Source: Tamaricihabitans halophyticus (lineage in GTDB: Bacteria > Actinomycetota > Actinomycetes > Mycobacteriales > Pseudonocardiaceae). From it: a stretch of 64,000 nucleotides of DNA. The notes under the pieces were generated by a model, which made no database searches, was not told the DNA's origin, and saw nothing but the letters and a program-made list of their open reading frames with translations. Every line of letters starts with the position of its first letter. Positions within the stretch are counted from its first letter, which is position 1. The stretch is from contig NZ_SLXQ01000008.1 in NCBI RefSeq assembly GCF_004340875.1, forward strand, positions 209,173 through 273,172, read 5' to 3'. Position numbers and translations under genes: made by a program. Below are positions 44,085 through 50,466 of this stretch, piece after piece.

Positions 44085-44144
44085 GTGCCCCTCGATACCG
44101 GGAAACTCTCGCGTGGTTCGGAGAACGAGCGAAGGGGGTGCCAG

Positions 44145-47100
44145 TTGGCTCCGCCCGTCGCGTGCACGCTGGTCGCACGCAACTACCTACCCGCGGCACG
44201 GGTGCTCGCGCGGTCGTATCTGGCGCGGCATCCGGAGCACCGGTTCGTGGTGGGCGTGATCGACGGGCCGCCGGAGGCACGGTACGCGGGTTTTCCCGAA
44301 CGGGGCTGTTCGGTGGTCGGTCCGGAGGCGTTCGGCATCGACGAGGCCGAGTACCTCCGGATGGCGACCGCGTACACCGTGCTGGAGCTGGCCACCGCGG
44401 TGAAGCCGTACCTGTTGCGGGCACTGCGCCGCGAGCACGAGGTGGCGATCTATCTGGACCCGGATATCCAGGTGTTCGCGCCAATGCCGGAGCTCGTGGA
44501 GCTGGCCAGGGCTCACCAACTCGTGCTGACCCCGCATTTCCTGCGGCCGTTGCCCAGGGACGGCAAGGAGCCCGGGGAAGCGGTGATCATGGGCACCGGA
44601 TTGTTCAATCTCGGATTCCTCGCCACCGGCCCCGGTTGCGAGGAGTTCCTGGACTTCTGGGCGGACCGGTTGCGGATGGACGCCGTGGTCGCGCCGGACG
44701 AACAACTGTTCACCGATCAGCGCTGGGTGGATCAGGTGCCCTCGCTGTTCGGGCATCACGTGCTGCGCGATCCCGGCTACAACGTCGCGTACTGGAACAC
44801 CCACGAACGTCCCATTGAGCGCGCCGAATCCGGCGAGTACACCGCGGCCGGGGTACCGTTGCGATTCTTCCACTTCAGCGGCTATCGCCCGGAAAAGCCG
44901 TGGCTGCTCAGTTTTCACTGCTCGCGCCGGCCGCGCACACTGCTTTCTGAACACCCGGTGCTTGGCGAACTCTGTGCCGGATACGGCACCGCCCTGGCCG
45001 AGGCCGGGTACGCGGATCCGGGTGAGGAGAGCGGGTACGGGTTCGGCGCGCTCGCGGATGGCACCCGGCTGACCCCGCTGATCCGGCGGCTGTTCCGCAC
45101 CGCGTGGCTCGATTACGAACGCGGCGAGCGAGGAGCGCATGGGACACCACAGCGGCCGCCGATGCATGGCTTCGGTGCCGATGGTGGTGCCGCGCTCGTT
45201 CGCTGGCTGGCCGAACCACCCACGGCGGCGCACGCGGCGGCCGGAATCAGCAGGCTCGCCATGGCGATCTGGGGGAGCCGGGCCGATCTGCGTGCCGCGT
45301 TCGGGGACCCGACGGGTGTGGATGCCGCGAACTTCCGGCAGTGGTGTCGCGATTCCGGGCCGAAGGAAGTCGCGCTGCCGCCTTGGGCCTGCCCCGCCGA
45401 ACCCGCGAGTCTGGCCCCGCCCGACGATGAGTTCGGCGTGAACGTGGTTGGTTACCTGACCGCCGAACTCGGACTTGGCGAGATGGGTCGCATCGTGCAC
45501 GACGCGCTCACCGCCGCCGAGGTACCGGTCGTATCGGTGGTGGAAGACCGCGCGGTGCACAACCGGACTGGCCTGCCCGCGCCGGAAACCGTTGGAGAAC
45601 CACGGTTTCCGGTGAGCCTGTTGTGTGTCAACGCCGACCAGACCGGCGTCGTACTGGACAACCATCCGACCGCGGGGTATCGGCGATACCGGATCGGGCT
45701 GTGGGCTTGGGAGCTCGACAAGTTCCCCGGATGGCTACACGACGCGTTCGCCGCCGTCGATGAAGTGTGGACAGTCAGTGAGTTCTGCCGGCAGGCAATC
45801 GCGCGACACAGCAGCGTCGATGTGCATACGATCCCGGTGCCCGTGCCGGATGTGGGCAAAACCGCGCCGCACCGCCGGCGGCAGGACCCGATCCAGTTCC
45901 TGTTCGCCTTCGATTTCAACAGCGTGGGCGAGCGGAAGAACCCCTGGGGCACGGTGGAGGCCTTCCGCCGCGCGTTCCCCGATCCGCACGCGAATCCGCC
46001 CGCCCGGCTGGTTCTCAAGGCGATCAACGGTGAGCGGAATCCGCATGCGGCCGAACGGTTGCGGATGGCCGTCGCCACGGATCCCCGGATCGAGCTGATC
46101 GATCGGTACCTGGACACCGCGGAGCTGCATCAGCTGTACGCGAACAGCCACTGCTATGTCTCCTTGCACCGCAGCGAGGGATTCGGGCTGACCATCGCCG
46201 AAGCCATGATGCGCGGTATGCCAGTCATCGCAACCGACTACTCGGGCAGCGCCGAGTTCCTCGACGAGCGAACCGGCTGGCCGATTCCCTACACGATGGT
46301 CGAGGTCGGCCACGGATGCTTTCCCTACCAGGCAGACGCGCACTGGGCACAGCCCGATGTGGACACCGCCGCACGCGCGATGCGACAGATTGCCGAGTAT
46401 CCCGAGGAAGCCGCCAAACGTGGCTGGGCGGCTCGGGAGAAGCTGCTGCGCGCCCGATCGACGGAGGAGGCGGCACGCTGGTTCGGCCAGCGGTTGGCCG
46501 CGGCGTACGAGTCCTGGCAGGGCGGCGCGGCATCAACCGCGGCCGAGCAGGAGGTCGCCGAACCGTTGGAGTCTGCCGAACTGACCGAGCACACCGATAG
46601 CCCAGATAGCGCCGAGCAGGGCAAGGCGGATGGGGTGGAAGGAGTCAGCGTCTTGGTCGAGGATGCCGAACCGGCGCCGGCCGACGAACCAGCCGCGGAA
46701 GTACCCGACGACGGCGCTGAGGCAGGCCCGGCGCTGCGGGAACCGCTTGATCCGCTGCGCGCGGCGAGGGAGCGGCTACACCAGCGGCCAACGGCGGACG
46801 ATCCCGCCCGCAATCCACTCGCCCCCGCTCTGCGCAAGCTGGTGCTGCGCAGCTTGGACCACTACGACGCGCACCAGCGTGGCCTGCTCGACGCGCTCGC
46901 GGACGGCACCGAGGACACCGCGGTTCGGCTGCGGGAGCGGATCGAAGCGCTGGAACGCCGGTTGGATGCCCTCGAGGCAAGCACCCGGGTGGACGAACTG
47001 GCCACCGAACTGACCGCGGCCGCCACACGGGCATCCCGTACCGAGGACTCGGTGCGCGAGCTGGCCGAGCACACCGACACCGAACTCGCCGCGCTGGGCC

Positions 47101-48032
47101 AGCGGTTCGACAAGGGCCAGCACGACGCCAACGTGCGCCAGCAGCACACCATCGAGATGTTCGCCGAACGCGATCGGCGAACCGACGCCATGCACACCCA
47201 GCTGGACCGGGTTCAGCTGGATCTCGATCCGTTGTATCGGGCGGCACCGTTGCGCCATGCGCCCGTTCCCGCCGGGACCGAGGTCGTCCTGTGCGATGCC
47301 GGAGCCCTGCTGGTGCCGCGCGACGACGTGTTCCTGCCCTGGCTGCGGCACCACCGCGGCTGGGAGGAGGACGAGGCCAGCCTGATGGCGACGCTCGCCG
47401 GCGATGGTTTCGTCCTCGATATCGGCGCGCACGTCGGCTACCACACGATCCGGCTGGTCCGGGACTGCCCGGAGATCGCCGGGGTACTCGCGGTCGAAGC
47501 GAACGAACACACCGCACTGCTGCTCGAGCGCAATCTGCGGGTGAACCTGCCGGAGCAGGCCGCGCGCGGTGTGTCGGTGCTACCGGTCGCGGCCTGGGAC
47601 CAGGACGCGACGGTGCGGCTAGCCCAGCAGGAAGCGCATAACAGCGGTGACTACCGAGTGTGGCAGGACGGCGAGCCTGGCGCGGGCGTACGCGGGATCC
47701 GGCTGGACGGCTTGCCCGAACTCGGCGAGGTCCGGGTCGGACTGGTCAAGGTGGATCTGCAGGGTCGTGATCATCGTGCGCTCGCCGGCCTGGTCGGCGT
47801 CCTGCGGCGGGATCACCCGCAGGTCGTCTGCGAGTTCGCGCCGGAGCAGATCCGTGGCCTTGGCGATGATCCGGAGCTGGTGCTGCGCGGTTACCGGGAC
47901 TTGGGCTATCAACCCGGTCCGATCGGAGCGGCCGAACGGGAGTACACCGATGCGGAACTGATCGCCGAGGCCGAAGCCTCGGTGGCCGGATTCAGCACGC
48001 TCTGGCTGCGGCCGTCGTCCGTAACGCCGTAA
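44145..48032 (+). CDS. Multidomain glycosyltransferase: GT-A-like + GT4 + coiled coil + FkbM-type methyltransferase
   Basis: A 1295-residue cytosolic-looking protein with four parts. (1) Residues about 5-330: a GT-A nucleotide-sugar transferase with the metal-binding IYLDPDIQVF (DPD near 105) and FNLGFLA. (2) About 430-790: a GT4/GT-B domain with VNVVGYLTAELGLGEMGR, VWTVSEFCRQAI and the donor-site HRSEGFGLTIAEAMMRGMP. (3) An acidic linker and a coiled coil (about 900-1030) rich in Arg/Glu heptads. (4) About 1085-1240: an FkbM-type methyltransferase with VLDIGAHVGYHT and VEANEHTA. The start is TTG 44145 with AAGGGGG six bases upstream. It probably builds and O-methylates a surface glycan; substrates are unknown. 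An acyltransferase gene follows. Confidence 0.9.
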   Translation: MAPPVACTLVARNYLPAARVLARSYLARHPEHRFVVGVIDGPPEARYAGFPERGCSVVGPEAFGIDEAEYLRMATAYTVLELATAVKPYLLRALRREHEVAIYLDPDIQVFAPMPELVELARAHQLVLTPHFLRPLPRDGKEPGEAVIMGTGLFNLGFLATGPGCEEFLDFWADRLRMDAVVAPDEQLFTDQRWVDQVPSLFGHHVLRDPGYNVAYWNTHERPIERAESGEYTAAGVPLRFFHFSGYRPEKPWLLSFHCSRRPRTLLSEHPVLGELCAGYGTALAEAGYADPGEESGYGFGALADGTRLTPLIRRLFRTAWLDYERGERGAHGTPQRPPMHGFGADGGAALVRWLAEPPTAAHAAAGISRLAMAIWGSRADLRAAFGDPTGVDAANFRQWCRDSGPKEVALPPWACPAEPASLAPPDDEFGVNVVGYLTAELGLGEMGRIVHDALTAAEVPVVSVVEDRAVHNRTGLPAPETVGEPRFPVSLLCVNADQTGVVLDNHPTAGYRRYRIGLWAWELDKFPGWLHDAFAAVDEVWTVSEFCRQAIARHSSVDVHTIPVPVPDVGKTAPHRRRQDPIQFLFAFDFNSVGERKNPWGTVEAFRRAFPDPHANPPARLVLKAINGERNPHAAERLRMAVATDPRIELIDRYLDTAELHQLYANSHCYVSLHRSEGFGLTIAEAMMRGMPVIATDYSGSAEFLDERTGWPIPYTMVEVGHGCFPYQADAHWAQPDVDTAARAMRQIAEYPEEAAKRGWAAREKLLRARSTEEAARWFGQRLAAAYESWQGGAASTAAEQEVAEPLESAELTEHTDSPDSAEQGKADGVEGVSVLVEDAEPAPADEPAAEVPDDGAEAGPALREPLDPLRAARERLHQRPTADDPARNPLAPALRKLVLRSLDHYDAHQRGLLDALADGTEDTAVRLRERIEALERRLDALEASTRVDELATELTAAATRASRTEDSVRELAEHTDTELAALGQRFDKGQHDANVRQQHTIEMFAERDRRTDAMHTQLDRVQLDLDPLYRAAPLRHAPVPAGTEVVLCDAGALLVPRDDVFLPWLRHHRGWEEDEASLMATLAGDGFVLDIGAHVGYHTIRLVRDCPEIAGVLAVEANEHTALLLERNLRVNLPEQAARGVSVLPVAAWDQDATVRLAQQEAHNSGDYRVWQDGEPGAGVRGIRLDGLPELGEVRVGLVKVDLQGRDHRALAGLVGVLRRDHPQVVCEFAPEQIRGLGDDPELVLRGYRDLGYQPGPIGAAEREYTDAELIAEAEASVAGFSTLWLRPSSVTP

Positions 48033-48078
48033 CTATGGCGAATTCGTCAACCGTGTCCGATGGCGTGCGTCGGCCGGT

Positions 48079-48084
48079 TACCCT
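48079..48084 (+). promoter_or_regulatory. -10-like element (TACCCT) of the acyltransferase gene
   Basis: TACCCT ends nine bases before GTG 48094, and no ribosome-binding site intervenes, which suggests a leaderless transcript separate from the preceding gene. Confidence 0.35.
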
Positions 48085-48093
48085 GCTTGGGGT

Positions 48094-50466
48094 GTGACAC
48101 GCGTGGGTGCCCGCCGTGTCCCCACGCGCCGTTGGGGCGATCCTCGAGAAGGGGGGTCGGTAGCGCTGGCTGGCCACAGCGCGGAAGACGACCGGGACGC
48201 CGCGGTTCGGCGCGCCCGCGGACGCTCGCGCGCGCAACTCCCCGACAGTGACGCGGACCGCCCTACGTCGGGCAAGCGCCGGCGTGCCGCTGACGATACC
48301 CAGACGACTAGGGCGCCGAAGGTAACGATGCGGCGAAATGGCGAAGAACCGTCAACTGGTCGCCGGGCCACGGGCAGGAACGGGAAAAGCCGGGACGCAA
48401 ACCCCGGGGCCGCAAAGACTGGGGCCGCGAAAACTGGTGCCGCAAAGACTGGAGAGTCCAAGCCCCAGGAGGCCAAGTCCCAGGAGGGCAGGCCCGAGGA
48501 GACCGAACCAGCGACGTCGAAGCCAGCGAAATCGCCTACCGCGAAATCGGCCACCGCGAAGTCGTCGGCGGGGAAATCCCCGGCGGGCAAGACGAACGGC
48601 GCGGAGACCGCGACGGGCGGGGCCGCGACCAGCGGCGCGGACCAGGGTGGCAAGCGGCGGATCGCGTTCATCGACATCGGCCGCGCGATCGGCGCGCTAC
48701 TGGTCGTGTACACGCATTTCGACATGCTGTTCCTGCGCGAGAACAAGGATGTGCAGCTCTGGGTGACCCAGGCGCTGGATACCGCGTTCGTCTCGCCCAT
48801 GCGGTTCACCGACCAGGGCATCGGCGCCGTCGCGATCCCGTTCTTCTTCCTCGCCAGCGGTTTTGTCATCACGCCGATCGCCTTACGGCTTGGGGCGAGC
48901 AGATTCGCGGTCAACCGCGTGTTCCGGGTCTATCCGCTGCTGATTTTCGTTGTCGCGGTCAGCGCCGGATTCTTTGCGCTCGGCCTGCGGCCGCTCACCA
49001 CCGGCACGGTGACCGAGCTGGACGCCGGCATGCTGCTGAGCAACATCTCGCTGGTGAACTTCCTACAGAAGCCACTGCTCGCCCTGGTGGGTGTGGCCTG
49101 GACGCTTGCCGTCGAGGTGTTGTTCTATCTGCTGGTCGTCGCACTGTTACCGCTGTTGCGGCGCAATATGTGGCTGGCCATCGCGGTCGAGTTGGAGATC
49201 GTCCTGCTGGTGCTCGCCACGCACGCGCAGTTCGGCGAGAACTACCGCGCCATTGCCGTGAACGTGGCCTACCTGGTGATGCCGATCGCGGGGCAGGTGC
49301 TCTGGGCGGTCTGGGCCCGGCACATCAAACTCTGGCTGGCCAGCTGCTATCTGCTGATCGCCTGGGGGCTGTTCGTCTGGGCCGGCGAGCTGAACATCGA
49401 CCCGGACTACATTCCGCGAGCCTTCCCGTTCGTGGCGGCGCTGTTGCTGTTCCTGCTCGGCCTGTTCGCCGAGGAGCGGATGCGGGAACGTAAGGCCTGG
49501 ACCGCGTTGTCCGAGCGCACCTATTCGATCTACCTGCTACATGGCGCGATCGGCTTCCCGGTGATGTTCCTGGTCTATGACCACCTGCCGGTCTGGCTGA
49601 CACTCGGCGTTGGGGTACTGGCCACCGCGATAGGCGTGGAGATCGCCTACCGCCTGGTCGAGCGGCCAAGTCACAACCTCGGACGACGGCTATCCCGACG
49701 CGGCGGGAACGGCAGGGCGGCCAGCAAGGAGACCACACCAGTGGACCCGGAGGATGCTGGGACTCCCGAGCGTTCCGGGACGTCCGAGGACACTGGTATC
49801 TCCGCGGACCGTGCGGATACCGCCGATGCCGAGGTCTCCGGAGACGAGCCTGCCGTCAGGCCGGAGTCGCCGGCCGAACGCACCGACGTGCTGCCGCGCC
49901 GCACCGACCGGGAACCCGGCGACACCAGGGTCGGCGAGCAACTGCCGCGTTCCTCGGGAGAGCTCTTCGGGCAGAACCCAGCTCCACCGCGCCGCGATCC
50001 GGGTATCCGACGCCCGGTCGGACACCCCGGCCGGGGAAACGGCGAGCCGGGCAAGCGGTCGGTGGAACGGCGGGCGTGGGTGGAGCCGGACCAGGGGACC
50101 GCGATCCGGCAACGGCTGAACGGTCACACCTCAGATTCCGGTCCACCCCATCCCGGTGTGGTCCCGTCCGATCAGCAGCCGTCGGGCGTGCCCGCTCGGC
50201 CCGCGCCGCGACCACCGAGGTCCGATCCGGCTGGCCCTGCTCGGGCTGGACCGGTCGGTCCAGCACCGCCGCCGCGCCCGAGCGCGCCCCGGCGGAATGC
50301 GGCCTATCGGGACCAGCCACGGCCAGGAACCAATCCGACTGGACAGGTCCAGCGGGGGGATCCACCGCCGCCGGAGTTCCCACCCGGCCAACCCCGGCCA
50401 GGCCGGCACCAGCAGCGACCGCCGATCCGGCAACAGCCACCGCGCGAGGAGGACGGGCAGGACTAG
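48094..50466 (+). CDS. Acyltransferase 3 (OafA/YrhL-type) with long disordered tails
   Basis: A 790-residue protein. Residues 1-187 are a charged, disordered tail with a tripled GAAKT repeat (about 105-119). The membrane acyltransferase-3 domain (about 188-548) has RIAFIDIGRAIGALLVVYTH at the start, the conserved arginine in VNRVFRVYPLL, and about ten helices. Residues 549-790 are Pro/Arg/Gly-rich and disordered. Such enzymes O-acetylate or O-acylate polysaccharides or glycolipids, which fits the adjacent glycosyltransferase fusion. The start is GTG 48094, with no ribosome-binding site. Its stop shares CTAG (50463-50466) with the convergent GNAT gene. Confidence 0.88.
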   Translation: MTRVGARRVPTRRWGDPREGGSVALAGHSAEDDRDAAVRRARGRSRAQLPDSDADRPTSGKRRRAADDTQTTRAPKVTMRRNGEEPSTGRRATGRNGKSRDANPGAAKTGAAKTGAAKTGESKPQEAKSQEGRPEETEPATSKPAKSPTAKSATAKSSAGKSPAGKTNGAETATGGAATSGADQGGKRRIAFIDIGRAIGALLVVYTHFDMLFLRENKDVQLWVTQALDTAFVSPMRFTDQGIGAVAIPFFFLASGFVITPIALRLGASRFAVNRVFRVYPLLIFVVAVSAGFFALGLRPLTTGTVTELDAGMLLSNISLVNFLQKPLLALVGVAWTLAVEVLFYLLVVALLPLLRRNMWLAIAVELEIVLLVLATHAQFGENYRAIAVNVAYLVMPIAGQVLWAVWARHIKLWLASCYLLIAWGLFVWAGELNIDPDYIPRAFPFVAALLLFLLGLFAEERMRERKAWTALSERTYSIYLLHGAIGFPVMFLVYDHLPVWLTLGVGVLATAIGVEIAYRLVERPSHNLGRRLSRRGGNGRAASKETTPVDPEDAGTPERSGTSEDTGISADRADTADAEVSGDEPAVRPESPAERTDVLPRRTDREPGDTRVGEQLPRSSGELFGQNPAPPRRDPGIRRPVGHPGRGNGEPGKRSVERRAWVEPDQGTAIRQRLNGHTSDSGPPHPGVVPSDQQPSGVPARPAPRPPRSDPAGPARAGPVGPAPPPRPSAPRRNAAYRDQPRPGTNPTGQVQRGDPPPPEFPPGQPRPGRHQQRPPIRQQPPREEDGQD

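Follow-up and report, generated by a model that had tools for sequence, protein, structure and literature searches.

In a window of 64,000 nucleotides from Tamaricihabitans halophyticus (Pseudonocardiaceae; contig NZ_SLXQ01000008.1), the whole stretch of DNA analysed here, a single open reading frame (ORF) joins two glycosyltransferase (GT) domains, of GT-A and GT4 type, to a predicted coiled-coil region and a C-terminal FkbM methyltransferase, and a membrane acyltransferase is encoded by the next gene (Table 1). Both proteins had been claimed in the first-pass annotation. The 1295-residue fusion is borne out by the ORF, by profile searches and by structure prediction, and the acyltransferase matches PF01757 with 90.3 bits (cut-off 31) over residues 191-515 (48664-49638). 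An alternative start of the fusion ORF, GTG at 44085, would yield 1315 residues; TTG at 44145 is the better start, because it is preceded by AAGGGGG, a stretch resembling a ribosome-binding site.

The GT4 part scores 55.5 bits against PF20706 (cut-off 26) in the Pfam search of the fusion, with further matches to PF13692 and PF00534, and its GT-B fold and E-x7-E motif agree with membership of this family. The FkbM part exceeds the cut-offs of both PF05050 (28.9 versus 22.7 bits; Pfam) and TIGR01444 fkbM_fam (59.3 versus 37.7 bits; NCBIfam) and contains the S-adenosylmethionine (SAM)-binding motif expected of the family. No kinase domain was found in the fusion by the Pfam search. On its own, the GT-A domain reaches 17 bits against PF01501 (GT8), under the cut-off of 24.3, and the profile detects 10 of the 25 proteins in alignment A4 (best E-value 6e-5). 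In the AlphaFold2 model the domain is an ordered α/β fold with the DxD motif directly after strand 101-104; the prediction and alignment A1 thus agree on a DxD following a β-strand, the mark of GT8 and GT-A enzymes. A GT-A profile retrieved no PDB sequence up to an E-value of 10, and the hits of structure searches with the N-terminal half of the fusion were taken up by GT4 entries.

Alignment A1 comprises 120 rows, 119 of them with the FkbM domain. D105 of the DxD motif is present in 120/120 rows and D107 in 119/120; in the GT4 motif, E678 is invariant (120/120) and E686 is found in 115 rows (Gln in four, Asp in one). D1092 and G1094 of the SAM motif are retained in all 119 rows having FkbM. 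GT domains devoid of catalytic residues, which the first-pass annotation had named as an argument against its proposal, are therefore not a property of the fusion; some relatives without FkbM lack the GT-A motif.

The fusion is widespread in its family. Among the best 120 of 1530 database matches, 119 carry FkbM together with GT4, one being the protein of the window, and the named genera are all Pseudonocardiaceae; the fusion is thus neither unique to this sequence nor split in all relatives. Some match occurs in 114 of 150 Pseudonocardiaceae genomes, and in 30 of the 150 an open frame of at least 1226 residues encodes a copy whose GT-A and GT4 parts are 59% or more identical. In a search of 296 genomes of the class, scoring the top two candidates per genome, just eight match at an E-value of 1e-60: two are Pseudonocardiaceae and the other six are partial matches. 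A chance or one-off fusion is ruled out by this recurrence in database and genomes. Plasmid records matching the fusion query number 63, none covering more than 80%. One GT-A-GT4 copy without FkbM, L005, comes from a record named outside the family (JOAA01000035.1, by its title Rhodococcus rhodnii NRRL B-16535); because the genes are ordered as at L006 and L007 of Kibdelosporangium, the record may bear a wrong strain name.

Across these proteins, the FkbM domain and an intact GT-A DxD motif are present or absent together. We compared 222 proteins, consisting of the best 120 each of 1530, 532 and 926 matches plus those of 45 loci, after removal of identical and nested sequences (244 to 222; P0003 and P0123, database copies of two proteins from the window's genome, were dropped). 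The 45 loci are a hand-chosen, non-random set of 20 close FkbM orthologues, 20 others, four from a separate search and the window. Under a strict definition, by which Asp to Glu counts as broken, FkbM coincides with DxD in 150 proteins and 61 have neither; seven combine FkbM with a broken DxD (six from the divergent clade C and one reading D-H-E) and four have DxD without FkbM. With clade C left out and shared descent ignored, Fisher's test gives p ~1e-47. In the 61 proteins without FkbM and with a broken motif, 18 are without an acid at either position and five retain Asp or Glu at both; the motifs take 40 different forms and therefore resemble decay, unlike one new specificity. Within the 45 loci, DxD is intact in 23/23 clade A and B copies that carry FkbM versus 0/16 copies without it (one D-A-E), and GT4 in the same 39 copies retains E678 in 39/39 and E686 in 37/39 (one Gln, one Asp). 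The GT-A to GT4 ratio of column entropy is 1.54 without FkbM versus 0.99-1.07 in 50 same-size FkbM subsets, and proteins without FkbM retain D105, N155 and N13 in 20%, 18% and 25% of cases, with the GT4 motif positions checked at 94-100%. Judged by these sequence measures, the GT-A domain is relaxed along its whole extent where FkbM is gone.

Loci without FkbM often encode a separate methyltransferase. A likely methyltransferase gene lies within 5 kilobases on the same strand in 14 of 16 such loci (15 distinct, as L007 and L061 carry an identical protein) versus 3 of 29 with FkbM; the replacement families were recognised within the same 45 loci, and types outside them would be missed in both groups alike. 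Three forms were found: methyltransferase-coil-GT2 proteins at five loci, coil-methyltransferase proteins beside a double-GT4 protein at three, and methyltransferases with a C-terminal extension at six. Coils occur in 7/7 proteins of the first two types and in 0/11 of the third. The coil-methyltransferase type scores under the Pfam cut-off of 27 in the two proteins tested (16.0 and 24.5 bits), and its third locus was detected by tblastn. In the coil proteins L065:6268-7419 and L067:6239-7441, the C-terminal part resembles a methyltransferase; encoded next to the double-GT4 protein, they seemingly replace FkbM in a third way. The large methyltransferase-coil-GT2 proteins L059:14877-18425, L068:2280-5696 and L070:4158-7559 constitute an independent fusion of methyltransferase, coil and GT. 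The first of these, of 1182 residues, is encoded in the window's own genome, adjoining two acyltransferases and an 885-residue GT-A-GT4 paralogue (L059) without FkbM, in which D-Q-R replaces D-P-D. It thus resembles the fusion in uniting methyltransferase, coil and GT beside GT-A-GT4 and acyltransferases, but is built from Methyltransf_23 and GT2, and the DxD of its GT-A-GT4 partner is broken. The congener's homologue, L060:13243-15054 (603 residues), lacks the methyltransferase part. The full fusion is probably old, with FkbM lost later, because the helix and FkbM are also present in clade C. At all six clade C loci a member of a glutamine-synthetase-like gene cluster (Pfam run on one) lies just upstream, and a ribosomal RNA operon lies just downstream in both loci that are long enough.

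Between GT4 and FkbM, the predicted model contains two helices, 893-945 and 949-1037, both modelled with confidence. A crude heptad detector calls a coil across them at 910-987, spanning 78 residues, whereas 20 shuffles averaged 12. With it, a coil was called in 153 of 157 FkbM proteins and within the GT part in only 24 of 157. The coil region varies from 19 to 116 residues in alignment A1, in which the GT4 domain is nearly constant (360-372). Around residues 890-912, the hydrophobic moment of the conserved helix is low (0.25-0.41), so that it does not stand out as a clear membrane anchor. The acidic linker reported in the first-pass annotation is real in this protein, with 21 Asp/Glu and 2 Lys/Arg among its 71 residues, but it is no family feature: its median length is 10 residues across 119 FkbM-bearing proteins, the T. 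halophyticus fusion among them, and just three of the 222 proteins exceed 25 residues, the two longest being the fusion and its congener's copy and the third having 28. The long linker is therefore an oddity of this genus.

Table 1. Features of the fusion gene and of the acyltransferase gene (positions in the window)
Feature	Position	Strand	Details
GT-A / GT4 / coiled-coil / FkbM fusion ORF	44145..48032	+	1295 residues, TTG start
GT-A (GT8-like) domain	44145..45179	+	residues 1-345 of fusion
GT-A DxD, D105-P-D107	44457..44465	+	alignment A1
GT4 (GT-B fold) domain	45432..46514	+	residues 430-790 of fusion
GT4 E-x7-E, E678 and E686	46176..46202	+	alignment A1
Acidic linker	46530..46742	+	residues 796-866 of fusion
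Helix 893-945	46821..46979	+	family signature L-A-P-A-L-R-K...D-H-Y-D-x-H-Q-R
Long helix 949-1037 running into FkbM	46989..47255	+	structure prediction
FkbM methyltransferase domain	47256..48014	+	residues 1038-1290 of fusion
SAM-binding motif D-I-G-A-H-V-G	47418..47438	+	residues 1092-1098, alignment A1
AT3 (OafA-type) membrane acyltransferase ORF	48094..50466	+	790 residues, 61 base pairs after fusion ORF

The neighbouring acyltransferase contains eight hydrophobic segments in a hydrophobicity scan, which together with the profile match places it in the AT3 family. Its membrane domain is flanked by low-complexity tails, about 190 residues rich in Lys and Ala before it and about 275 rich in Pro and Arg after it, and the full-length proteins of its gene cluster measure 373 to 883 residues. 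The first-pass annotation had called for a survey of this neighbourhood in Pseudonocardiaceae; there the domain order of the fusion recurs, and an AT3 acyltransferase lies 3' of it, on the same strand and within 5 kilobases, at 20 of 21 close-orthologue loci (19 by gene call and the congener by tblastn with 59% identity; the exception is L058). Directly upstream, 19 of the 21 encode a protein that crosses the membrane once and has a charged N-terminus in the cytosol, and the two loci without it are those of this genus. The proposal that very few genes suffice hence applies to this genus, but elsewhere the membrane protein gene adjoins. Homologues of this protein, represented by L044:7800-9047, occur at 37 of 45 loci, next to the fusion gene in most; they consist of a short charged N-terminus, a proline-rich linker and a C-terminal domain of about 130 residues that stays below every Pfam cut-off. 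The flanking ORFs of the window are mostly housekeeping genes (pnp, an M16 peptidase, dapB, thyX, two serine/threonine kinases and RNase J; Pfam was run on 21 window ORFs, about 28 other called ORFs lying outside that scan), and because of this the fusion and the acyltransferase look like an isolated two-gene unit here. A promoter and terminator scan gave nothing that exceeded shuffles. AlgX-like proteins (PF16822) are encoded on the same strand within 5 kilobases at 9 of 16 loci without FkbM versus 4 of 23 with FkbM, clade C aside. In alginate systems, AlgX-like proteins acetylate outside the membrane.

The architecture invites comparison with chain terminators of O-antigen systems. In these systems, the strategy is marked by a terminator placed distally on a coil, apart from the polymerising GTs (PMC11231755). 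WbdD, which acts with the WbdA polymerase in Escherichia coli O8/O9a, carries its terminating methyltransferase on a long coil away from these GTs (PMC3482155, PMC11231755), and WbbB of Klebsiella pneumoniae O12 and ORF6 of K. pneumoniae O7 combine two GT modules, coil and terminator in a single protein (PMC11231755); ORF6 caps with methyl-phosphate, WbbB with a terminal 3-deoxy-D-manno-oct-2-ulosonic acid (Kdo) (PMC9587256). Like WbdD, the fusion is predicted to hold its methyltransferase off from the GTs by a coil, a feature it has by prediction only. Unlike WbdD, it unites GTs and methyltransferase in one chain, in the order GT-coil-methyltransferase, with an FkbM-type enzyme, no kinase and a genome without Wzt_C. 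Like WbbB and O7 ORF6, it joins a pair of GT modules to a predicted coil and a putative terminator in one chain; in those proteins the terminator is N-terminal and the GTs are C-terminal, whereas here GT-A and GT4 precede FkbM. By analogy, the fusion would follow a WbdD-type logic with other parts and in reverse order. It cannot be filed with the WbdD-type terminators, because Wzt_C and an evident membrane helix are lacking and the ruler role is only putative. The FkbM methyltransferase of Methylobacillus flagellatus (2py6) is named in its entry as a methyltransferase alone, and the literature searched held no title or abstract on the fusion or on FkbM as a chain terminator.

On the basis of these results, we tentatively propose, as a reading that is quite possible but falls short of probable, that the fusion extends and O-methylates a sugar chain and that the acyltransferase next door acylates the glycan at the membrane. 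The GT4 domain would extend a cytosolic chain, to which GT-A would add one kind of residue; FkbM, spaced from the GT domains by the coil, would O-methylate this residue at the coil's far side, most likely as the end of the chain, and the acyltransferase would modify the product at the membrane. The joint loss of FkbM and DxD suggests that GT-A and FkbM act on one residue. This residue is presumably the chain end, the product a surface polysaccharide and the acyltransferase's substrate the fusion's product. The coil may in addition set chain length, in the way of WbdD and WbbB. The main rival, which we consider somewhat unlikely, lets GT-A and GT4 alternate to form a disaccharide repeat, every repeat being methylated by FkbM, with the coil as a flexible spacer and neither cap nor length control. 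O-antigen polymerases indeed use two GT modules of one chain per repeat (PMC11231755), and a length range of 19-116 residues is what a spacer would show. However, lineages without FkbM lose the GT-A motif with GT4 intact, from which a GT4-made chain seems not to need GT-A, and the replacement methyltransferases are coiled in all proteins of two types, though in none of the third.

A true polymerase-terminator of WbdD/WbbB type, with FkbM as the capping enzyme, the coil as a molecular ruler and export of the capped chains, appears unlikely. The order of polymerising GTs, coil and terminator obeys the O-antigen rule (PMC11231755), WbdD of E. coli O8 is likewise a methyltransferase that has no kinase (PMC3482155), and coil calls concentrate ahead of FkbM instead of within the GTs, but the genome lacks the Wzt_C domain and the protein an evident membrane helix and a kinase. 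A broader possibility, that polymerase-terminators made as one chain form a Gram-positive class in Pseudonocardiaceae, is rather unlikely. In such proteins GT-A and FkbM would jointly place a methylated cap where a coiled-coil ruler ends, and the two would be exchanged together for other proteins built of GT, methyltransferase and coil, altering the chemistry of the cap but not the GT4 polymerase. That the product is a short glycolipid or secondary-metabolite glycan instead of a polymer seems improbable, as no other glycan or natural-product enzyme appears by name among the 21 Pfam-scanned window ORFs and the acyltransferase and AlgX-like proteins encoded nearby point to a role beyond the cytosol, the former being a membrane enzyme. 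Flagellin glycosylation islands are known to contain FkbM enzymes as well as GTs that carry methyltransferase domains (PMC5109656, PMC4875605), yet a role of this kind is highly improbable and in this strain is ruled out: the flagellin N-domain is absent from the genome, which is 98.67% complete, with 4 of 14 control genomes positive.

Several observations weigh against the proposed joint action of GT-A and FkbM at a chain end. On the GT4 tree, with six clade C rows left out, FkbM and DxD each change four times, and of four independent pairs about two agree, none opposes and two show no difference, which is not significant; the coupling is clear across proteins, but its independent support is thin because the tree holds few independent events. 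The four proteins with DxD but no FkbM run counter to it, as do the clade C paralogues L073-L078 (for example, L074:9127-12846), which keep FkbM with degraded GT motifs. DxD is also retained in a 914-residue GT-A-GT4 homologue with intact motifs on plasmid pAB510f of Azospirillum sp. B510 (L105:5944-8688), in a cluster with dTDP-rhamnose genes (rfbABCD/galE; dTDP, deoxythymidine diphosphate) that also encodes a class I methyltransferase and a second large GT4 protein, of 1698 residues. The make-up of this cluster speaks for the proposal; the intact DxD in a protein without FkbM speaks against it. L006 and L060 lack FkbM and show no other methyltransferase, and GT-A is located on the polymerase side of the coil instead of its distal end. 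Finally, no exporter was identified: Wzt_C (PF14524) had no match in the genome, with 2 of 14 control genomes positive and exporters without this domain remaining possible, and of 25 ABC-2 matches, inspection of ORF starts by eye placed the best three in surroundings of other genes that do not resemble glycan loci. One Wzy_C match is barely above the cut-off (35.1 versus 31.7 bits).

As a whole, the interpretation offered in the first-pass annotation is thus partly supported: the union of two GT domains with FkbM, the conserved motifs, the recurring order and the acyltransferase neighbour are borne out, and a surface glycan as product and length control of WbdD type stay putative. Pseudonocardiaceae are known for their antibiotics. 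The coiled-coil terminators in the papers cited belong to Gram-negative O antigens (PMC3482155, PMC11231755). If our reading is true, coiled-coil chain capping, and perhaps length control, would also exist in a large actinobacterial family and be built from unrelated parts, and the joint disappearance of FkbM and the motif of GT-A leads to a direct prediction about the methylated sugar and the domain that adds it.
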